From: Odontesthes bonariensis
Lineage: Eukaryota > Chordata > Actinopteri > Atheriniformes > Atherinopsidae
Reading direction: 5' to 3'
Length of the DNA: 64,000 nt
NCBI RefSeq assembly: GCF_027942865.1
Contig: NC_134524.1
Coordinates: 19,397,536 to 19,461,535, forward strand
The translations under genes and the position numbers were made by a program. Below, piece after piece: positions 9,320 to 52,253 of the stretch. The notes below the pieces were generated by a model. The model had not been told where the DNA came from, did not search any database, and saw only the letters and a list, made by a program, of their open reading frames with translations. The stretch's first letter is position 1, and each line of letters starts with the position of its first letter.

Positions 9320-12300
9320 TGTGTCTTTGTTGCAGCCATTTTTCAACATAATGTTCCCGTGCACAACCAACTCATGACACTTGTATGACAGTAGAGTATA
9401 CTATGTTAGGGTTTGGAATACTGTGTACTGACAGGGTTTAAATACCTCAAATAGCACTCAAAGGCTGACATAAGGCACCCATGTGTGATTCATTTTTGGA
9501 AACTGACACGATTCATATGTTGCCTCCGAACAGCCAGGCTTTCATGTAATCTTTTAACATGGTCTTGCACAGTAGTTCTCCAGGCTTTCTGAAGGTCTTT
9601 CAAAGTTCTCTTTGAACGTTGGCTGCGTTTTGAATCATTTGCAGTCCGGTCCAAGAGATGAACCAGTGCTGCGTCAACGTATTAACAGGCAACTTGGCAA
9701 AATAACCCATTGTAAACGGTATCTTTAGGCACTTTGTCACTAGCAGCCTGTCACAAAGGCATTTGTTCCCATTTCCTTCGTTGCATCTATGAAAAATGCC
9801 AAAGGTAACACAGTTTGACAGACAGAAAATAGTATTTTTGCACCGACATGGTGGTTCTCAAAGAACTTTTAGCTGAAAACGTGGTATATCTCAGCATGGT
9901 GTGCAGTGTCAGAAGTGCAATCCATTTATCAAATTTTTATTTTATACCACGACTGGTGGTAAAGTCACATCCCTGCGTGGTGAAGTTGGTGGTATCCGCG
10001 ACGGGGACGCAGGGGCAACAGTCCAAGCCGAGATTCCCAGACCTCTGTCCAGACACTTCCTCCAGCTCTTCCAGCTGGACTCCAAAGCGTTTCCAAGCCA
10101 GAGAGTCCGATGTCTGCCCAGAGGCCACCATCTTGGGAGATTTTCTGAAACACCGCTCCTGGGAGGTGTCTGGAAATCATCCTGACCAGATGCCCAAACC
10201 ACCTCAACTGGCTCCTTTCAGTGTGTAGGAGCAGCAACTTTAGTCTTAGCCCCTCCCAGATGCCTGAGCTCCTCACCCTATCCCTCCATGGAAAGGTGGT
10301 TTCAGGAAGCAAATCTTAGGGAAGGAAAACGGGGAGAAAAAGGCTGAATATGCCAAATGACACCAAAGCTGGGCTGAAAATCAATAGAGCGAGGTCTCCA
10401 AATGTGAATTTTTTTTAGTTTAAAGCATCATAGATAGGAGGTCTGGACAGCGTCTGCATCCATCTGTAAATTACAGTGGTGTTTGTGATTTTCTCAGCAG
10501 GTTGAACGAGTTTTTTTGCCTGAGGGTGTTGCTGGGTTTGAAGTCCACTGGGATGTTGTGTTTGTCGCATATCCCGTCTGGGGCTTCTCAGACTCCTGTC
10601 CCATATCAAACGACAACATTTTCTGTATCTGTTAAATATAATGTTCTGATAAAAGACCCAAACACAAGTACCCTAGAAATCTAGACGCCCCTAGCGGCCG
10701 CAAATGGAATTTGCTCCGGGGCTAGTCTAGTCACTTGTGGTCGTTTTGCAAGGTTCCAAATCAAAACTTAATCGAGCCAATCAAATCGTGAGGAGCGGGG
10801 TCGGAGGCCGGGCTACCTAGTGACGACAGAGGTGCGACGTTTCAGTGTGTAGTTTCAGAGAGAGGTTAAAAAAAACTCTCTTTAGATTTATAGGGAAACG
10901 AAGTAAACTTACATCTGAGAGCAATCCCCAGTCAATTGCGAGCATGATGTACCAAAGACAGCGGGCCGATCTTCGTCTCAGAGCTGACAAAACTCTCCGG
11001 TAAGGCATTTGAACGGTCAAATTCCGTTAACGGGACGAGAGTAGTCAAAACGGCAAACCGGAAGTGCGTTGCTCACTGCGGCTAGCTTTAGCAGCGCCGA
11101 ATTCGTGGGAACAAAATTGTAAATTGCCGGTATTTTGTCAGATTTTCAACACCTTGGGGATCTAAACGACTACTTTCTCGCCTGAAAATGTTTCGAATGT
11201 TGCTAAAGTTTACAGAGTTTAGAGCTTAAAGGCAGGGTAGGGGATCTTTTTCTGGAACATTTTTTTACATATTGCTTGAAATACTCTTCACACCCCCATT
11301 GCAACCAATTAATTAAAAGTTTTGACACAAATATGAAAAGTTTTAGTGGCCTCTTGAACGTACAATCTAGGAAAAACAGTATCCAATCATTGTGAACGGA
11401 CCGTTCACAATGATTGGATTCTGATGCCGTCTATCAAACTGCAATCTGCTCCTCCCTCCCCCTCCCCCTCCTTCCCCCTCCTTTCCCCTGTGCGCGTACC
11501 CTGCTCCGTGAACGAAGCTTGGCAGGAAGCTAAACTAGAGCCAGCTTGGCTAGCACCTAGCATTATTAAACGTATAGTTAGCATAACCTAAATACTAAAT
11601 ACTAAATACGGCAACGATCGATGCTTGCTGTCAGAACAGCGCTCGTGCACCTTCGTGCTCGTGCGCGTTCATGTACTCTAGAGGCGTGCCTTCGGGGGAA
11701 AAGTGAAGAAAAGGGTTGGGACTTTTTACCTGTGTATTTTCAAAATGCAGCTTTGCTGGACTCAAAATCCAGGATCTCCTACCCTACCTTTAAGAGAAAT
11801 CAGCTTTTCAGGCCATAGACTACTGACCACAATGTACATTCCGTCGCGTTGACTACGTAAAACTTCTTCATTGCTCTGATTGGTTGTTGCGCCATCCTAT
11901 TGAGTGGCGTTGAACTTGACAGACAGCCGTTTATCCCGCCCACACTGCTATCCAGCGTCACTAGACCCCTGTACAGCTTTTTGCTGTACGGGTCTGGCTT
12001 GCTAGGCTAAAACACAAGCTGAGTGGCTTTTTGTATTCTAGTCCAGTGCAATTAATAGTGAACGAAGACTGGAGAGCCAGCTCTTCAGGTTAAGTCCACC
12101 TGAATCTGAAGTATAAGTGACACTCTTTCGAGGACAGCAATTCATACATTCTAGTCAGAGATATCAACTTATATTTGAGCCCCTGACACAGAAACATCTA
12201 CAGGTTAAAGAGAAGCTATTCCAAAACACCATCTAGATTAAATTTGGTTATGCATTTAGCCTAAGCTGCGAGCAAAGCTTGAGACCATGGGGGGAAAGCC

Positions 12301-20900: not shown

Positions 20901-23900
20901 AACTTTAAAATCTATTCTGTATCTGACCGGGAGCCAATGTAAAGACTTGAGAACTGGGGTGATGTGATGTGATCTCTTTGTTCTGGTTGAAACTCGGGCT
21001 GCAGCGTTCTGAATGAGCTGCAGCTGTTTGAGACTCTTTTGGGGGAGTCCAGTCAGAAGACCGTTACAGTAGTCAAGTCTGCTGGAGATGAAAGCATGAA
21101 TCAGCTTCTCCTGATCTGTTTGGGACATGAAACCCTTAATTCTGGATATATTCTTAAGTTGATAAAAGGCTGATTTGGTGACTGATTTGATATGGTCTAA
21201 GCATCTCTGACCTACAACAATAGATTAAGACAGAGGTCTTCAACAGGGGGTCCGCGGAGGTACTGCAGGGGGGTCGTGAAATCTTTGGTTGATTAGACGA
21301 TTTTTTTTTTTTTTTTTTTTTTAAACAGTTTTTTCTCACAAATTGTGTTCAAACGTGTGCCATCCACAGATGGTTTGAGGATTCATTGTCCCATCTACAT
21401 GCATGTTTAAAGTTAAAATCTGTGTATTATTTGAATAGCTCAGTGTTGTATGCAAGATGTTTGTTTATAAATGGCAGTGGCACGGCCACCCTGTACCTTG
21501 CACATGTTTAAAATAAAAACATGAATATATTAACCTGTGTATTATTTGAATAGCTTAGTATTGAATGTACAATAACAGAGTAGCTATGTTTATACACGGC
21601 ACTAGGCCCCGTTAAATATAAAACACAATTGTATGCCATATAAATAGTAGGGGGGTCCCTGCTCCAACTCTCCATCAGTTTTGGGGTCCCTGGCCTGAAA
21701 AACGTTGAAGACCCCTGGATTAAGAGATGTCAACTTCTCTCACGGAATATCAGCAAATTTATTTATTTCTTAAGTCATTTTGGTTTTGTTAGCTGAATTC
21801 ACTGAAAATGCTATCTCTGCTCAGCTTCACCTTCTTGTCCAAATACAGTTATTTCGTTTGCAAAAAAAGCACCCAAGACCCAAGCATCTGGATTCTGTTT
21901 TTGCCACAGTGGATATGTCATAAAGCGCCTGTTTTAGCTCATGTGAAGTCATGGGAAAAATTAGTTTACTGTAAATCCCAGTGTGAATTCATAAAAATGA
22001 GAGTTGTCTTATCTGTGAAAGATTTTCCTAGATTCGGGGGATTTTTTTTTTTTTTCAAATACAAACAAGTTGATAACTGCAACAGTTTGACTTTAACACA
22101 ATGTGTCAAATATGCTGTTTCATTTGCTTCAAAAGGGGGGGAGGGATAAGGCATATAAAACATCAGCAATAGCAGCAGCACAGCAAGGTCTTGGTTCAAG
22201 GCTGGATGTATAAAGCAGGTCTCTGTTACCATGGCTACTGACAACACAGTTGGTCCCTTGTGTCATTCCGCCCTCCTTCAGGTGTCACGTGTGCGGCTTT
22301 GAGACCGAGGGTCACGCCCTTTTCCAGAGTCACATGACGGAGCACCGCCAATGGGAGCACGGCTCCTTCTCGCTGCACTGCTGCGTTTGCGACCACTCGA
22401 CCAATCAGGAAGCAGAGATGAGGGCCCATGTGGGCACGCACATACGGGGGGACACGGGAGAGATGAGGTGGGTTTACTTTTAAAGTGTTTTGTCTGTAGA
22501 AGATGTTCGGCCCGTAGGAACCCTGATGGCACACGTCATTGCCGTTATATGCTCAGAAAGCCGACCTAAAGCAAAGTGCAGGATGTAGTCACATCTGTAA
22601 GCATCATTTCCTCCACCTCACCCTCTCCTGATGAGTGTGGCTGGAAAATAAACAAAAAAAAAACTCAAAACACCCACACTTGAACCCCTGCTTTGTTTGT
22701 CACCTGTGGGCTCCTGTAGTAGCACGGCAGAGGGGCATCTCTACCAACAGATCACTAAACACTCTTTAAAGGCGGGGTAGGGGATCTTTTTCTGGAGCAT
22801 TTTTTTACATATTGCTTGAAATACTCTTCACACCCCCATTGCAACCAATTAATTAAAAGTTTTGACACAAAAATGAAAAATTTTAGTGGCCTCTAGAACG
22901 TACAATCTAGGAAAAACACTATCCAATCATACTGAACGGACCGTTAACGATGATTGGATTCTGATGCGTCTATCAAACTGCAATCTGCTCCTCCCTCCCC
23001 CTCCTTCCCCCTGTGCGCCTATCCTGCTCCGTGAACGAATTACGCGTCCAGAAGCTCGGCAGGAAGCTAAACTAGAGCCAGCTTGGCTAGCACCTAGCAT
23101 TATTAAACGTATAGTTAGCATAAACTAAATACTAAATACGGCAGCGATCGATGCTTGCTGTCTGAACAGCGCTCGTGCACCTCCGTGCCCGTGAACAAGC
23201 ATTGCACGTTCATGTAGTCTAGAGGCGGGGCTTCGGGGGGAAAGTGAAGAAAAGGGTTGGGACTTTTGACCTGAGTACTTTCAAAATGCAGCTTCGCTGG
23301 ACTCAAAATTCAGGATCTCCTACCCTACCTTTAACACTGTAATGGTCAAATTTATGACGTCGTTTACCAAGTAAAATTGACCCAGATTTTGTTTCAGGTA
23401 TGAATATTTGATCTTTTCTGTGATTGTATACTTGACATCTTTGTTTGTTTGTTCTTTTTTAAAATATTTTTTCTTTGGATGTTAACTTGGGCTTTAGGAT
23501 GTTGTTCTTTTCTCGAAAACTATGCTTTTATCCTCAAACTTTCACAAGTTTGTTTCACAAGTTCATGACTTTCTCACGTGTTTATTTCTTTATGAATTGC
23601 AACTTATTTAATTGGGACTTATTTCCTTAAGTCCATGGGGAATTGGGTCATTCATTCAAGAGAGCTTACACAGGTTTAGTAGTTAAGTTATTTTGAAATC
23701 TTTATTCGTGAACAAACACTCATTAAGATCTCAATAAAATACGTTAAGCACTTAAATCCAATATAAGGAGGTGCGTCCTGTTCAAACAGTGTATGTAATC
23801 ATTTTTGTATTGAGTCGATGTGTCCCAAAAAACAAAAACGAAAAAAACAAACGGCATGTTTTCATAGAGAAAGTATTCTAAAATCCTATAAGAGGAGTGT

Positions 23901-24961
23901 CTTGTGTTTGTAATGACAGTTTTTGGTGTTGATTATGTGGCTGTGTCGTGTTACATGCAAGCTATTCTAAGAAATGCCACTATTCTCTAAATTTTTGTTG
24001 GAAATGAATAAATGAAACATCATCATTCAATGTATGTGTATTACATGAGACCACTTTAATATGATTATTTTAGATTAGTTCAACGTGAGTTTGGAAGAGT
24101 CAGAAGTTACTGATAATAAAAACATTTGTACTGTGTCATTTAAACAGTCTGCAGTGTTTTATGTTCTCTTTACTTTCGGTATGTGTGCTCTGTGTGTGTG
24201 TTGTTTTTTTTTTTGGTCATGTAATGTGTGTCTGTGTGTGCGCGCGCGTGTATTTGCGTGTCTTCAATACCACCCCCCCACCCCTCCTGACTTCCAGATG
24301 CCCCGTCACCCTTCCTGCCGCCTCCAGCGGTGCTCTGGCAGTTGTCGTGGCAACCCAGCCGGAGAAGAGCACCTCTGAGCATCGCTGCCGCATCTGCCAG
24401 AGGTCGTTTCCAGGGCAACAGGAGCTGCTGGTTCATTTCCAGGGTCATCGCCAGGGCAACCAGTACCGGTGCGACCGGTGCGGCCACCTGACGCGGACAG
24501 CCAACAAGCTGGTTGAGCACGTGCGCGTGCACACCGGGGAGCGGCCGTTCACCTGCGACCTGTGCCCCTACAGCGCCAAGCGGCGGGACAGTCTGCGGCT
24601 GCACTGCAAGGTGAAACACGGCGCACACGTTAACGGGAACGCGGCGGCCGATGCGCCAGGCGACGTGCACACGCACCGGTCGTACGTGCACAGAGACAAT
24701 CAGCGGACGAGCAAGCACGTTCAGTGGCTGCATACACCGCCCAGCACACACACTGCCGCCGCCTCTTCCTCCTCCTCTCATCCTCCTTTTCAGCTGTCGC
24801 TCTCTGACCGCACAGGATGGAGGGATTTATCTCCGCTCCTCCCCATTACAACGCTCATTTCTCTGAAGCCACGCTCACCTTCGTCCTCCTCCTCCTCCAC
24901 TTCGTCTTTCTCCACTAAACACTCTTTCCTTGGTTACCTCGGCCTGGCAACTTCTTTGTAA
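7197..24961 (+). CDS. znf827: Zinc finger protein 827-like, C-terminal two thirds (N-terminal fingers not found)
   Basis: ZNF827 is a nuclear C2H2 zinc-finger protein linked to NuRD recruitment and DNA-repair signalling. Phase-consistent exons: 8992 (or 8862)-9078, 12393-12578, 12749-13438, 14157-14217, 14340-14410, 18560-18614, 22282-22467, 24298-24961 (stop TAA). A tentative first exon is 7197-7247. A phase-0 exon at 8579 is possible, but its frame stops at 8760. From 8992 the chain encodes 665 residues. Three 'D(I/V/M)S-K-AS-LL--LS' helices (9020-9078, 12540-12578, 13390-13438) and an LKEE-DLMEVD linker match ZNF827. The fingers are CX2CX12HX3H twice in 22282-22467 and three in the last exon, the final pair joined by a TGERPF linker. 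The mammalian N-terminal fingers and the CDVCGK finger pair were not found. A 30-bp repeat array expands the 12749 exon. A truncated paralogue, or 5' exons left of the window, are both possible. Confidence 0.75.
8792..8816. repeat. (AC)n microsatellite
   Basis: This is an uninterrupted AC dinucleotide run directly after a poly-T tract, in or beside the uncertain second exon region of the znf827-like gene. Confidence 0.95.
9275..9318. repeat. (CA)n microsatellite
   Basis: This is a continuous CA dinucleotide run in the intron after the exon ending at 9078. Confidence 0.97.
9510..10430. mobile_element. Unnamed DNA-element relic, interrupted by a LINE fragment
   Basis: The block at 9560-9650 (AGTTCTCCAGGCTT, then GTTGGCTGC) is similar to 35080-35150. 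The block at 10320-10385 (GGAGAAAAAGG, ATGCCAAATGA) matches 53560-53620 in reverse complement. Together with 34930-35150 and 53405-54175 they define one dispersed family. The copy here looks split by the Rex3-like fragment at 9950-10315. The exact ends were not resolved. Confidence 0.5.
9950..10315 (-). mobile_element. Rex3/RTE-like LINE C-terminal fragment
   Basis: On the minus strand, frames carry QLRWFGHLVRM followed by a run of residues typical of the C-terminal tail of RTE/Rex3-type LINE proteins (the usual form has L-WFGH--RM, then a W-LGLLPL-P-like end). About 115 codons are open but there is no reverse-transcriptase core. It is a dead, 5'-truncated fragment in a znf827-like intron. 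Confidence 0.75.
10672..12006. mobile_element. DNA transposon with imperfect terminal inverted repeats, hosting a nested MITE
   Basis: The left end CCTAGAAATCTAGAC is an imperfect inverted match of the right end GTCTGGCTTGCTAGG (11992-12006). A hairpin (GACCCCTGTACAGC, T5, GCTGTACGGGTC) lies just inside the right end. Residues 11040-11229 and 11790-11815 are homologous to 50990-51190 in reverse complement. The MITE at 11230-11789 splits this homology. The superfamily was not determined because the flanking duplication could not be read clearly. Confidence 0.6.
11230..11789. mobile_element. TTAA-flanked MITE, copy 1 (560 bp)
   Basis: The ends AGGCAGGGTAGGGGATC and GATCTCCTACCCTACCT form terminal inverted repeats bounded on both sides by TTAA (11226-11229 and 11790-11793). 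Two further copies lie at 22770-23330 and 33404-33951. The central part holds a 19-bp perfect palindrome (11381-11419). No transposase frame is present. The TTAA target is typical of piggyBac and Kolobok elements; the termini do not settle which. Confidence 0.85.
12895..13377 (+). repeat. 30-bp coding tandem repeat inside the znf827-like exon
   Basis: Seven uninterrupted 30-bp units (13168-13377) encode ten-residue repeats of the form G-x-K-M-E-D-Q/H followed by three variable residues. Degenerate units extend upstream to about 12895 (for example GVKVEDRFCV and RVKIEDHGVS). Several match the SUMO consensus psi-K-x-E: VKTE, VKVE, VKIE and IKME, plus LKEE just upstream. Mammalian ZNF827 has a few VKEEP/IKEEP motifs at the same place, so this looks like a lineage expansion. 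Confidence 0.85.
14891..14933. repeat. (TC)n followed by poly-T
   Basis: This is a pure TC dinucleotide run ending in a run of T. Confidence 0.95.
15172..15340 (-). repeat. Dispersed fish repeat, minus orientation (Expander/RTE-like)
   Basis: The plus strand reads CCCAGCTGTTATTGGGCGAG, then GTCGCCAGTCCATCACAGG, then AATTTAGAGTCACCGGTTAA. These are the reverse complements of the blocks seen in order at 16.9-17.0 kb and 1.87 kb. It is a transcribed-element relic without coding capacity. Confidence 0.7.
16318..17075 (+). repeat. Dispersed fish repeat split by a 0.5-kb insertion
   Basis: The 5' part (16318-16398: GTTCTCCCCGTGTATGCGTG, then CTTCCTCCTACAGTCCAAAA) and the 3' part (16896-17075: GACTCTAAATTGTCCCTAGG, then GACAGCTGGGATAGGCTCCA, ending ATGGATGG) are consecutive blocks of one well-known fish repeat. 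About 500 bp (16399-16895) separate them, flanked by ATGTTTA on the left and ATGTTA on the right. A C20 run (17011-17030) interrupts the 3' part. Confidence 0.7.
16399..16895. mobile_element. Insertion within the split repeat
   Basis: This begins with GATTTAGATTTAGATTTTTA and an ATTTATTTATTTGCACAAA stretch, which reads as the A-rich 3' end of a LINE in minus orientation. A TG/CA-rich core lies inside. It is inferred to be a retroposed insertion because the flanking halves are contiguous in other copies of the repeat. The family was not determined. Confidence 0.5.
18870..19065. repeat. Unnamed dispersed repeat, copy A
   Basis: Blocks such as TAAAATCAGGATTTTATT and GACTGTCTGGAA occur in the same order in reverse complement at 44235-44470. 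No coding capacity or termini were seen. Confidence 0.55.
19130..19969 (-). mobile_element. Non-autonomous hAT element with BED-finger remnant
   Basis: The element runs from TAGGTCTGGGC to GCCCAACCCTA and is flanked by a perfect 8-bp duplication, ACGTTTAG (19122-19129 and 19970-19977). On the minus strand (19568-19263) a frame begins MEKGTELLLGHF and includes VICKHCQVELSYH...LKYHLKAKH, the C2H2-like BED finger at the N-terminus of hAT transposases. The catalytic body is absent. A tRNA-type SINE (19686-19822) lies inside. The whole sits in a znf827-like intron. Confidence 0.88.
19686..19822 (+). mobile_element. tRNA-derived SINE relic
   Basis: A degenerate A box lies in TGGCGTAGTGGGTTGGGC and a B box, GGTTCGAGTTC, at 19763-19773. 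These are followed by CATGTCGTTCCCCCTCTC, the body typical of fish tRNA-head SINEs. It is nested within the hAT element at 19130-19969, so it was either inserted there or carried along. Confidence 0.7.
20442..21190 (-). mobile_element. L2-like LINE 3' end
   Basis: On the minus strand, 165 open codons (21128-20631) read from a DYCNGLLTGLP block through NAAARV, LHWLPV, a KVLLLVYK block and HNWNKLP to KSRLKTFVF. This is the C-terminal tail of L2-clade reverse-transcriptase polyproteins. The 3' terminus at about 20442-20455 is a GGCAAGGCAAGGCA run, the TTGCC-type tail in reverse. The catalytic core is missing (5' truncation). Confidence 0.88.
21231..21717. mobile_element. hAT (Charlie-like) MITE, 487 bp
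   Basis: The ends CAGAGGTCTTCAAC and GTTGAAGACCCCTG are inverted repeats. The element is bounded by a perfect 8-bp target duplication, GATTAAGA (21223-21230 and 21718-21725). The 8-bp duplication plus CAG ends are diagnostic of hAT. No transposase frame is left. Confidence 0.9.
22770..23330. mobile_element. TTAA-flanked MITE, copy 2 (561 bp)
   Basis: The ends (AGGCGGGGTAGGGGATC and ATCTCCTACCCTACCT) and internal order match copy 1 (11230-11789). TTAA flanks both sides (22766-22769 and 23331-23334). The internal palindrome is degraded here. It lies in the last intron of the znf827-like gene. Confidence 0.88.
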
Positions 24962-30195: not shown

Positions 30196-30862
30196 AGGGA
30201 TAGTCCGCCACTTTTGACATGAAGCTGTATGACATCCCATATTAGCAATATCATTTATGAACATTGACTTACCCCCCGCTGCGTCCTGTGAGCCGAGTTC
30301 CAGCCGAGTTTTTGCCTTGATGAAGGTAGTCCGGCTAGTTTGCTAGGGTCCCGAAAATAAAGCGTCTTGCTTCTCAAAACAATATGCGTTCAAAAGAGTA
30401 ATACATTTGCATCACAAAATCGTCCCTCCAGAAAAAGTTAGACCTCACAATCGCTTGGTGCTATTTTTGCCTCCCTTCATATCAATGCGTACCGCCACCT
30501 AGCGATAGCCCCACCTGTTACGATGTTTACTGCTCAGTCTGCACTTCGGTCTGTACAGTTTACACAGCCCGTAATGATACGAAGGGAGAGAGAAATAGCG
30601 CCAAGCGATGTGAGGTCTGACTTTTTCTGGAGGGACGATTTTGTGATGCAAATGTATTACTCTTTTGAACGCATATTGTTTTGAGAAGCAAGACGCTTTA
30701 TTTTCGGGACCCTAGCAAACTTGCCAGACTACCTTTGTCAACGCCAAAACTCGGCTGGAACTCGGCTCACAGGACGCAGCGGGGGGTAAGTCAATGTTCT
30801 TAAATGATATTGCTAATATGGGATGTCATACAGCTTCATGTCAAAAGAGGCGAACTATCCCT
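30196..30862. mobile_element. Palindromic foldback DNA element, TTAA-flanked (667 bp)
   Basis: The left arm (30196-about 30490) and right arm (about 30570-30862) are inverted copies with only scattered mismatches by eye. They meet around a loop of about 80 bp. The ends AGGGATAGTCCGCC and GGCGAACTATCCCT are bounded by TTAA on both sides (30192-30195 and 30863-30866). The TTAA duplication suggests a Kolobok- or piggyBac-type non-autonomous element. There is no coding sequence. It lies in the gap between the znf827-like gene and otud4. Confidence 0.88.
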
Positions 30863-33403: not shown

Positions 33404-33951
33404 AGGCGGGGTAGGGGATCTTTTTCTGGAACATTTTTTTACATATTGTTTGAAATACTCTTCACACCCCCATTGCAACCAATTAATTAAAAGTTTTGAC
33501 ACAAATATGAAAAGTTTTAGTGGCCTCTAGAACGTACAATCTAGGAAAAACAGTATCCAATCATTGTGAACGGACCGTTCACAATGATTGGATACTGATG
33601 CCGTCTATCAAACTGCAATCTGCTCCTCCCTCCCCCTCCCCCTCCTTCCCCCTGTGCGCGTACCCTGCTCCGTGAACGTCCAGAAGCTTGGCAGGAAGCT
33701 AAACTAGAGCCAGCTTGGCTAGCACCTAGCATTATTAAACGTATAGTTAGCATAAACTAAATACTAAATACGGCAACGATCGATGCTTGCTGTCAGAACA
33801 GCACTCGTGCACCTTCGTGCTCGTGCGCGTTCATGTACTCTAGAGGCGTGCCTTCGGGGAGAAAATGAAGAAAAGGGTTGGGACTTTTTACCTGTGTATT
33901 TTCAAAATGCAGCTTCGCAGGACTCAAAATCCAGGATCTCCTACCCTACCT
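33404..33951. mobile_element. TTAA-flanked MITE, copy 3 (548 bp)
   Basis: It has the same ends and internal order as the copies at 11.2 kb and 22.8 kb, with TTAA at 33400-33403 and 33952-33955. The central palindrome is best preserved here, with arms of 23 bp (33551-33573 and 33575-33597) and a single-base centre. Confidence 0.88.
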
Positions 33952-48047: not shown

Positions 48048-51000
48048 TCATCGTATGCCTGCTCCTCATTTGGATGCAGGTCACTTTAATGTCTGTTTGG
48101 TTCAGAAACCACACCAAGCCGTGTTTAATCAAGCATGAGCACAATAAAGACCTGTTTGATTTAGGAAACATAGCTTTCCTAAAAACGCATACTTGGCCTC
48201 CACAAAAGATGCGCTCCCGTTCGCTTTTGAATTATCTTTGTGATTATTGTTGAGCATATCCAGGAAATAGTGTGTTGGGTTAAGTTTTTTTTCGTATGTG
48301 CAGGTGCTTTTACTTTGTCTTCACGTTGCTCAATTTTTTTTTCAGATTCTTTGCCAAAAACTGAAGGAACTCTGGCTTCTGAAACTTTCCAAAGCTGGAC
48401 GCCTCTGACCCAGATGCTCCCTCAAGGCTCTCTGCCGCAAAACCCGTACCAGGTCCCCGCATCCCGGGCTGAGAAAGAAACGCAGCACTCTCTATCAGAG
48501 AGCCATCCTGAAAGTCGAGCTTCTATCTCGCAAAGCGAAGTCACGATGCCCCAGATGCAGACAGAGTCCTGGTCCTCTGTCCCCCAGCACCGACCACAGT
48601 CCCACACCGAGGCGGCCTCTGAGCCACAAACACTCCAGCCGCAGTCTGAGGTGGTTCATATTCCATCCTCTCATCCACTTCCAGGAGCTTCCCACCCTAT
48701 CGTCCAGCCCCCTCACCCCTCCCAGGTCCCTCATCCTTCCCTTTCTTTCTCTGCCTCCACAACCCTTTCCAGTCTTGAGTCCGCCAGCACCCAGACCCAA
48801 CCTGAGGCTCCGACTTCTCCACCTCCGAAGCCCCAGTCTCCATCTCAGCCTCCCTCCCTCCCTCCCGCTCAGCCCTCTCATCCACAGTCTGCACCTCCAC
48901 TTCCTCACCTTCAGTCCATCGTTCCCCTGCAACAGATGTCCCAGATCTACCAAGACCTCCTGTACCCTGGGTTCCCGCAAGGAGAGAAAGGCGAAATGGC
49001 TTCGATTCCTTCCTACTCCTCCATCAAGTCTGGTGATGACCTGCCTCAAGGTGAGCCGGCCGCAGTGTTTTTTTTTTGTTTGTTTTTGTTTTTTTTTTAC
49101 AGATCAGTAGATTAGGATTTATTTTCACCCTCGTAAATGCAAAAATTTACAGTTCTGGAGTGCGAAGATGAGCTTGGAATAGGATGAGTAACTGTGACTT
49201 AACTTGTTGAGGGAGACATTTTTCAGTTATGTTCCCTCTTTAGTTTAGGAATCAGTCGTCCAGATACTGGATTCCTTCCTTCATAATACCACGCTTCCAG
49301 AGGGTTAGGGGTGCCCTATAAGTTGTTTGTTTTTATGTCTCAGATGAGTTTTTGGTGATGGAACAACTTTCCAACTATATTTCCTAAGAACCCCCCCACA
49401 CCATATTCGAACCACATTCCTAAAAATGGGGTTGCAAAAAATAGATATTTGATGTTTTTATATATAATGTGTTCTTTTGTCCTCTGCAGATGTTAACATC
49501 TTGAGGTTTTTCTTCAACTTGGGTGTCAAGGTAAGCGCTCTTCTGTTAGTGTAGAGACGAGCGAGACACTAGGTAGTTTAATTTACATAACAAAAAAATT
49601 AAAAATCACTAAAAATCAATCCCTGAAAATACTGGGACCTAAAGGCTTAAAATTTGGGCTAAAAAGTTCAAATTGGCATCTAAAGGGTTCATTTTTTGAA
49701 AATAATTGAAAACTTGGTAGTTATGATCAGAACTGAAGTGGAATAAAAGATTTATGAAAAAAAAGTGGAAAAATATTAATATGATGTTTTTAGGTTGTTT
49801 TAAAAGGGGACAAAAATGTCCCTTTTCAGAAATTAAGTTGTGTTTTAAATCAGGTGTGAGGGTTAAATATTTACCCTATTTTGTATGTGGATAAATGACA
49901 AACTTTCAAATCTTCAGGTTTTGCCTAAAACCATAAAGTTGTAATAACTGCTGAGAAATTTAACTCTGCTTCTGCTCTGCTTTCACTCAGGCCTACTCCA
50001 TGCCCATGTTCGCACCCTATTTATACCTCCTCCCCCTGCAGCAAACCTACACTATGCACCCCAAGCCCTCCTCCCACTCTCCGTCCCCCCAATACCCTCC
50101 GTCCAACCCCCCAGCCAGGCAGCAGGAAGCTTGCATGCCCCCCCAGTATCCTCCAACTTCAGTGTCGGTGCCCTCTCAGTACAACAATCAGACTTCAATG
50201 GCGGAATCCCCCAACCCCAGTGAACCGACCTTCAGCCAGGCTGGTTACCAAGCGGTCACCCAGCCACCGTCCCACGGGATGTCCAGCCCCTTGATGCCAT
50301 GGCAACAGATGCCTCCACCGAGAAACTCCAGCTTTCCTGTTGGGTATCCCTCCCCTCCTCCTCCATACTCTGGTCCCCCACCCTCATCTCAGGGTTACCA
50401 CCCAGGACAAGGCCCAGTTCACTCCATATACCCCTCAGCTACGCCTCAGTACCCCCCCTTTGCTATGGGATATCAGTCTTCATCTACCCCTGAAGAGCTC
50501 CAGGTGACACAGGGGGTGATGGAGCCACTTCAGCCCACCAACGGGGACCAAATGCCTGGCCACGGCCACGTCAGAGTCCTGGGTCCCCTGGACAGTCCTG
50601 GTGCTGCTAATGTTGCTAACGCTAACAACAGAAGAATGGTCGTTTCTCCCAATTATGGTAAGCAAACCGCTTTCATTCTAAAATATCAACACCATACCGG
50701 GCTTCTGTTTTTTTTTTTTGTTCCTGAGGTGATAACGTGCAAATCTCTCTTACAGCCCTGAAGGAGGCAGGAGATGGTACAACCAGAGTGGTGCTGCTAG
50801 TGGACCCGCCACTCGACAATAAACCCATAGTATGGCGCACACACTTTCTACAGTTATGCATAAGAATGAATCACTGACTGTGTTCGAAACCGCATACTAC
50901 ATACTACATACTTGCATATGGCATACTCATTATCAGACAGTGTGCAGAGCGTTTACCCACAATGCATTTCGTTCCTGCCCGAGCCGAAATCAGCCGGCCT

Positions 51001-52253
51001 GAAGCTGATTTCGCTTAAGCTCTAAACTCTCAAAAACTTTAGCAACATTTGAAACATTTTCAGGCGAGAAAGTAGTCGTTTAGATCCCCAAGGTGTTGAA
51101 AATCTGACAAAATACCGGCTATTTACAATTTCAACGAATTCGGCGCTACTAAAGCTAGCCGCAGTGAGCAACGCACTTCCGGTTATTTTCAATATCCGCT
51201 GCCTTTTATCATAGGGAAAGCCATTACGATACAATTGGTGCTTTGGGAAAAAAGTCGGTATGAATAGTAGGAGAAGTATACGGTATCGAACACAGCCACT
51301 CTCTTTCAATTCTGAGGTTTTACATATGAAGACCTTTTAATAAAACCATCTGGTCTCTACCAGATCTAAAAATGAGGTAAATATAACCTCAGATAAACCA
51401 GAAGACATGACCTGTTATAGTATGTTATCATTTTTTTCAACAAAAAAAAAAATAAAATCCCACATCATTTCATAAAATCACCATTCAGGTAACTAAGAGA
51501 ACTGTGTGGTGAATCCAGCTGCATTTACATGTAAGATGATCCTTTTCTGATGTCTTTCCTCCTTGGCAGTATGTTAGCACACACCAGGATGCCCCAGACC
51601 AGCAAACTGCCCAAACTTCAACTTGACTGTACATGTGGGGACCCTTCTTTCACATTCTGTATTCTCTTTGCCCCACTTACCCAGACCTTTACATCTAACA
51701 CCCAACTCTTAAATGTGTTGGGCTTCAGCACACACGTCTACTTTATTAGTTCAAGTATTTTGTCCCAACATTAACATTAGTTGAATGGTTTAGTAGTAAC
51801 CTTGTCTGTCTGTCTCAGCTTGCACTGATTTCAGACCCTGAAATGAAGGATTCCTCCGTCTCCAGGGCAACCATGAAGCCCGGGAGCAGCCCAGGCTCTC
51901 CATATAGTTACCGGGGTCACCGAAAACAGTTCAACGCCACAAAGCCGTACGTCGCTCTGGGCGGCCCAGAGCCCAGCCACATGAGCTACCCGCCGACTTT
52001 TACCGTGGGGGAGCCCATGTCAGTGGCCTGCAGCACGGAGGACGACTACGAGGAGATGGAGGGATTCAGACAGCCAGCCATGAACCACATGGGGCAGAGG
52101 AAGAGCTACAGAGGACGAGGAGGAGGAGGAAGAGGGAGGGGAGGCCATGATGCAGGGAGGGGGGCACAGAGGAGAAGATACGGCGATGCAGGGGAGGGGC
52201 CAAACTCTGTTCAGTTTAGTTCCTCCTACAGGATGCGGGGTCGGAGATACTAG
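37064..52253 (+). CDS. otud4: OTU deubiquitinase 4 (complete, 21 coding exons, 1313 aa)
   Basis: A cysteine deubiquitinase and RNA-associated scaffold. Exons: 37064-37204, 37536-37619, 39768-39818, 39922-39968, 40335-40407, 40855-40936, 41239-41401, 41726-41771, 41870-41972, 42544-42608, 42718-42815, 42894-42991, 43074-43230, 43735-43876, 44715-44771, 46362-46974, 48346-49050, 49490-49530, 49991-50657, 50756-50829, 51819-52253 (TAG). Every junction is GT-AG and phase-matched. OTU domain about residues 20-170: [13 protein letters not shown] gives Asp36 and the nucleophile Cys39, and NGNHYD gives His142. The acidic SSDESDVD stretch (201-208) sits where CK2-type phosphosites lie in human OTUD4. 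GDRCQVREG (about 281-289) opens a Tudor-like segment to about 330. Proline/serine-rich linkers follow, then conserved LYPGFP and [14 protein letters not shown] blocks, and an RG-rich C-terminus ([11 protein letters not shown]). It is about 200 residues longer than human OTUD4 (1114), mainly in the low-complexity exons. It is tail-to-tail with abce1. Confidence 0.96.
40667..40780 (-). repeat. Short LINE 3'-end fragment
   Basis: ACTCAACTTTATTTATAAAG followed by AAGTATAAGGCATAAAA resembles the reversed 3' terminus of L2/Rex-type LINEs. It is short and diverged, and lies in the otud4 intron between the exons ending at 40407 and starting at 40855. Confidence 0.35.
44235..44470. repeat. Unnamed dispersed repeat, copy B
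   Basis: Reverse-complement blocks match 18870-19065 in order (AATAAAATCCTGATTTTA, TTCCAGACTGT, AACTTACGAGT). It lies in the otud4 intron between 43876 and 44715. Confidence 0.55.
45276..46023. mobile_element. Tc1/mariner (Tigger-like) MITE, 748 bp
   Basis: The ends CAGTGAACCCTTGTTTTCCG and GCGAGGGTTCACTG are inverted repeats flanked by a TA dinucleotide on each side (45274-45275 and 46024-46025), as expected for the mariner superfamily. Internal 'CCGTGATAGGCGAAATCCGTG'-type sequence is typical of Tigger/pogo-derived MITEs. No transposase frame remains. It lies in the otud4 intron between 44771 and 46362. Confidence 0.82.
47175..47775 (-). mobile_element. L2-like LINE 3' end, degraded
   Basis: On the minus strand, [19 protein letters not shown] (about 47755-47690) is followed by a gap, then [18 protein letters not shown] and KSRLKTHLF (47632-47369). 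These are consecutive C-terminal blocks of L2-type proteins with an internal deletion. The 3' terminus at about 47175 reads GGCAAGGCAAG. It sits in the otud4 intron between the two proline-rich exons. Confidence 0.82.
48015..48045. repeat. Poly-T tract
   Basis: This is an uninterrupted run of T in the otud4 intron before the exon at 48346. It could be the A-tail of an antisense retroposon. Confidence 0.8.
50874..51300. mobile_element. DNA element with terminal inverted repeats (hAT-like), carrying an empty MITE site
   Basis: The ends CTGTGTTCGAAACCG (50877-50891) and CGGTATCGAACACAG (51281-51295) are inverted repeats. The core 50990-51190 is the reverse complement of 11040-11229 joined directly to 11790-11815, so it lacks the MITE. 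The exact target duplication was not resolved. It starts about 47 bp after the donor of otud4 exon 20. Confidence 0.7.

Follow-up and report, generated by a model that had tools for sequence, protein, structure and literature searches.

A 560-bp MITE at 11.2 kb of the window, by which we mean the whole 64-kb stretch of DNA analyzed here (C24:19397536-19461535), interrupts one copy of a host repeat that occurs uninterrupted near 51 kb, and the locus raises the questions of what the insertion does to its TTAA target and which kind of transposase moved the element. The comparison of the filled and the empty repeat answers the first question within a single window, at textbook quality and with genome-wide backing, and the insertion is an unexceptional but very clean example of TTAA-specific targeting. 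On the second question, we favor, with a probability of about 0.72, the reading that the MITE is a young, high-copy, non-autonomous cut-and-paste DNA transposon of the Kolobok type, moved in trans by a TTAA-specific transposase.

Three copies of the MITE lie in the window exactly where the preliminary description had placed them, and all three have TTAA on both sides and AG...CT termini. Their pairwise identities were 94.5% (11230 versus 33404), 90.3% (22770 versus 33404), and 88.3% (11230 versus 22770). The inverted ends, which had been put at about 20 bp, are present but measure 17 bp with 2 to 3 mismatches (AGGCRGGGTAGGGGATC / AGGTAGGGTAGGAGATC). Allowing up to 3 mismatches, the end motif was found 6 times in the window, at the two ends of each of the three copies, while shuffled sequences contained it 0.11 times on average and at most twice. 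The copy at 11230-11789 has no apparent coding capacity, its longest overlapping ATG/GTG/TTG frame being one of 65 amino acids, in agreement with the earlier claim that the copies lack a transposase. The element is thus what the definition of a MITE describes: short, with inverted ends, a target duplication, a high copy number, and no transposase.

Table. Features of the window (positions are those of the window)
Feature	Positions	Strand	Remarks
Host repeat, left part including TTAA, broken by the MITE	11056..11229	+	
Left TTAA target-site copy of MITE copy 1	11226..11229	.	
MITE copy 1	11230..11789	+	560 bp; sits in the host repeat; about 1% off the family consensus
Left terminal inverted repeat, MITE copy 1	11230..11246	+	AGGCAGGGTAGGGGATC
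Near-perfect palindrome inside the MITE	11377..11423	.	DNA fold -21.7 kcal/mol, z -8.8
Right terminal inverted repeat, MITE copy 1	11773..11789	-	AGGTAGGGTAGGAGATC
Right TTAA target-site copy of MITE copy 1	11790..11793	.	
Host repeat, right part	11794..11814	+	About 21 bp, then truncated
MITE copy 2	22770..23330	+	561 bp; more diverged variant, 4.3% off consensus; TTAA both sides
Second TTAA-flanked fold-back element	30196-30862		667 bp; ends AGGGATAG...CTATCCCT; TTAA both sides
MITE copy 3	33404..33951	+	548 bp; TTAA both sides
Host repeat paralogue, uninterrupted	50996..51184	-	Single TTAA

The two parts of the host repeat that flank MITE copy 1 align with the reverse complement of 51184-50996. 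When the MITE and one TTAA were removed, the 11-kb flanks aligned across the junction with all 30 copies fetched from the genome, the best alignment reaching 95.9% over 195 bp; support from the right flank is short because homology to the right of the MITE extends for about 21 bp, after which the 11-kb copy is truncated. The junction alignment comprised 35 rows representing 34 places, the 51-kb copy being present twice. One uninterrupted TTAA was found at 33 of the 34 aligned empty places, and the junction of the 11-kb site recurred in these 33 empty copies. The exception (L081) has a 5-bp deletion over the TTAA, which is either an ordinary deletion or a footprint. Host-repeat copy L070 shares with the 11-kb site the CTTTTCAGGCC variant on its right. 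With the same intact TTAA in 33 of 34 empty copies, the absence of the MITE at 51 kb is most simply ancestral, and the 51-kb site is most simply read as one host-repeat copy that was never filled. The comparison shows that a single TTAA becomes two on insertion, as the preliminary description had proposed. Its further statement that one window holds the pre- and the post-integration state needs rewording: the filled/empty pair is real, but the 51-kb site is a paralogue within a dispersed repeat family and not an allelic pre-integration site. The repeat belongs to a family with 354 genome candidates, 40 of which were scored, and 4 of the 6 copies inspected are delimited on both sides by inverted ends of the GGCTGTGTTCGAAACCGC type, with a spacing of about 630 bp. 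The host repeat (L032:1194-1822; window 50996-51184) is an inverted-repeat element in its own right, about 630 bp long and with GGCTGTGTTCGAAACCGC ends.

For seven further MITE insertions among the loci fetched, a relative aligns across the site. For four of them (L067, L083, L015, and L017), at least one relative carries a single TTAA, and for the other three (L011, L012, and L029) the relative carries a changed tetranucleotide, as do 2 of the 8 relative rows of L083. Neither a doubled TTAA nor a MITE remnant was seen in relatives of the seven insertions among the rows listed (4 of 8 for L083). The relative alignments of L011 (70.5%) and L017 (68.8%) are weak.

The same target was found throughout the 945-Mb assembly. 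Of its 187 contigs, 24 are 30 Mb or longer, and together with the transposon content this suggests a teleost fish. The left-end pattern GGCRGGGTAGGGGATC, which leaves out both the TTAA and the element's first A, gave 1,225 exact matches genome-wide, compared with 0 for the reversed control, and TTAAA precedes 1,200 of them (98.0%). Among 30 loci picked by this TTAA-free pattern, TTAA was present at 30/30 left flanks and at all 28 right flanks found. All 59 two-ended sites examined had TTAA on both sides, a count that is partly not independent of TTAA because about half of the loci came from a TTAA-containing query; one split copy (L064) and two copies that had lost the right end (L072 and L073) were left out of the two-ended counts. 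These flanks agree with the TTAA on both sides that the preliminary description had expected of other genomic copies. Outside the TTAA, no clear base preference was detected (30 left and 27 right flanks). In a sample chosen by the exact left end, a choice that favors young copies, 26 of 30 copies (3 from the window and 27 from other loci) were within 2% of the consensus; of the remaining four, W22770, L061, and L084 were 3.7 to 5.1% from it, and L076 had a replaced middle. The MITE family is young and high-copy, with more than 1,200 exact left ends, and was recently amplified.

The split in L064 is caused by a different inverted-repeat insertion, and the middle of L076 is replaced by sequence that is also found beside L072. 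Reading L064, L072, L073, and L076 by eye, we saw no transposase in these odd copies. The element nested in L064 (L064:1771-2441) has the inverted ends GGCTGATTCATACTCGGCGC. The internal palindrome retained at least 20 of its 22 pairs in 51 of 59 copies. W22770 and L061, both of them diverged, kept 17 pairs. Deletions run through it in L062, L069, L088, and L090, four copies that are young in other respects, an arm insertion is present in L016, and part of the palindrome is lost in L076. L084, at 3.9% divergence, has 22 of 22 pairs, which counts against a simple rule by which perfection is confined to young copies. As to the cause, template switching is a guess.

The assignment to a superfamily, on which the preliminary description had been silent, rests on the target and the termini. 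One source (PMC9587614) gives TTAA duplications for piggyBac and Kolobok and contrasts the Kolobok termini 5'-RR...YY-3' with those of piggyBac; another (PMC6004289) describes TTAA and a terminal AGGRR motif for the T2-MITEs of Xenopus and, for 10 full-length Xenopus Kolobok elements, AG ends in 10/10 and a left end of AGG in 6/10. Measured by these descriptions, our MITE has both the TTAA duplication and the RR...YY termini of Kolobok, and it shares the TTAA target of piggyBac but not its non-RR...YY termini, since it ends in AG...CT. The T2 motif is absent: the ends read AGGCR and AGGTA, with a pyrimidine as the fourth base. The ends AGGCRGGG/AGGTAGGG therefore fit the Kolobok rule and not the strict T2 motif, and we file the element as Kolobok-type and not as a T2-MITE. 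A literature text search with 12-letter stretches of the MITE ends returned no transposon paper by title, and a search for TTAAAGG with transposon returned no paper on such an element by title. Under the Kolobok-type reading, a TTAA-specific transposase supplied in trans would recognize the 17-bp ends, excise the MITE, and join it into a TTAA, and filling in of a 4-nucleotide stagger would leave a TTAA on each side. This enzyme would be a Kolobok-superfamily transposase, a DDE enzyme of a kind that usually bears a THAP domain.

The genome in which this young TTAA family sits is rich in open frames of the other TTAA inserter, piggyBac, and this weighs against the Kolobok-type reading. There were 1,328 piggyBac (PF13843) candidates, and among the 116 scored, many had open frames of more than 500 amino acids, some of them falling into groups whose scores are the same or nearly so, which suggests that piggyBac was recently active here. 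The alternative that one of the genome's piggyBac transposases moves the MITE, whose AGG ends would then be atypical for piggyBac, shares the TTAA target and stays alive because open piggyBac frames are so plentiful. Nevertheless, we consider it unlikely. piggyBac termini are typically CC...GG. The RR...YY ends of the MITE are of the kind that the literature contrasts with piggyBac (PMC9587614). Additionally, none of the 11 scored C1 piggyBac hits lay within 160 kb of a listed left end. In this proximity test, which used 100 listed left ends covering C1 and C2 to 28.06 Mb only, the nearest of the 11 scored piggyBac hits was 161 kb from a left end and the nearest of 11 scored THAP hits 32.7 kb. 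At C23:3016611-3019677, a piggyBac DDE frame is followed, about 1.8 kb downstream and in the same orientation, by a frame with a THAP domain.

Also against the Kolobok-type reading, incomplete searches that used the end pattern, the THAP and PF20700 domains, and proximity recovered no autonomous element with the MITE ends. The end-pattern search kept the TTAA and the 17-bp end with at most 1 mismatch and demanded a non-MITE interior, so that it is blind to a partner that shares more of the MITE sequence or has a diverged end. It returned 14 places, and most of these, judged by eye from the matched letters, are ends of the MITE itself that carry small deletions or indels; the place at C28:21984505 is different. 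The THAP search (PF05485) gave 1,545 genome candidates, with a longest open frame of 324 amino acids among the 150 scored. PF20700 (Mutator-like), which we take to cover part of Kolobok, had two matches in the genome, 6.2 kb apart and taken as one locus (C2:30549108-30556259); the first has an internal TGA. L091 covers the 3' part of this locus, where a 251-amino-acid frame matches PF20700 at 8.7e-42, and the 159-amino-acid frame that follows, which has no Pfam match, looks like its frame-shifted continuation. A second full relative of the 251-amino-acid piece was not found, two partial matches of 25 and 31 amino acids being the only ones, and the 3.0 kb read at this locus contained no MITE ends at up to 2 mismatches; like the stop codon, this counts against the Kolobok-type reading.

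A second element bears on that reading as well. The fold-back element at 30196-30862 has inverted arms of 269 nucleotides that are 95% identical, and its ends conform to AGGRR. Its 4,701 genome candidates yielded 40 scored matches, the 39 non-self ones being 91 to 95% identical over the full query. With two such families, AGG-ended and flanked by TTAA, in a single window, Kolobok-type machinery in this lineage would be more plausible. Across 10 frames, the only protein match in the window was a C2H2 zinc-finger exon, plus a weak TOC159 match below the cutoff, and RNA families gave 0 matches. The zinc-finger frame (24161-24961) is probably an exon of a host gene.

The family could also owe its amplification to an enzyme from a superfamily other than the one its ends point to, for instance a piggyBac transposase that recognizes RR ends like those of Kolobok, or to an undescribed lineage of TTAA transposases with an autonomous source that was lost or is very rare; we regard this as quite improbable. 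A 2-nucleotide TA duplication by a mariner-like enzyme that strictly prefers TTAA, acting on an element with A...T ends, is a far more doubtful proposal. TTAA is palindromic, and the filled and empty sites parse equally well as T-TA-[A AGG...CCT T]-TA-A, so that sequence alone cannot separate a 4-nucleotide TTAA duplication from a 2-nucleotide TA duplication with a TTAA target and fixed A...T ends. However, in 59/59 copies the outer T and A vary no more than the inner TA does, and mariner preference beyond TA is softer. An origin of the 51-kb copy by excision, whether footprint-free or imprecise, deserves hardly any weight: piggyBac-type transposons that use TTAA can excise without a footprint, so that precise excision may have occurred at any single site, but the uninterrupted TTAA recurs in all empty copies apart from the one deviant, and the imprecise loss that the preliminary description had considered fails on the same observation.

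Among known systems, the short inverted-repeat elements of teleosts were reportedly described by Izsvak et al. in 1999 and bear the name Angel. By description they resemble our MITE, being from fish and being cited for the TTAA/AGGRR type in PMC6004289. The piggyBac superfamily and its MITEs share the TTAA duplication, and open piggyBac frames are abundant in the same genome, whereas the RR...YY termini of our MITE set it apart in the terms of PMC9587614. Autonomous Kolobok transposons share, by the same source, both the TTAA duplication and the 5'-RR...YY-3' termini, and they differ in that our MITE has no transposase and no linked autonomous copy was found. The T2-MITE family of Xenopus (PMC6004289) differs at the termini, AGGRR there versus AGGCR/AGGTA here in a comparison of the ends alone, and resembles our MITE in its TTAA target, its AGG-starting ends, and its non-autonomous, abundant, and recently amplified nature.
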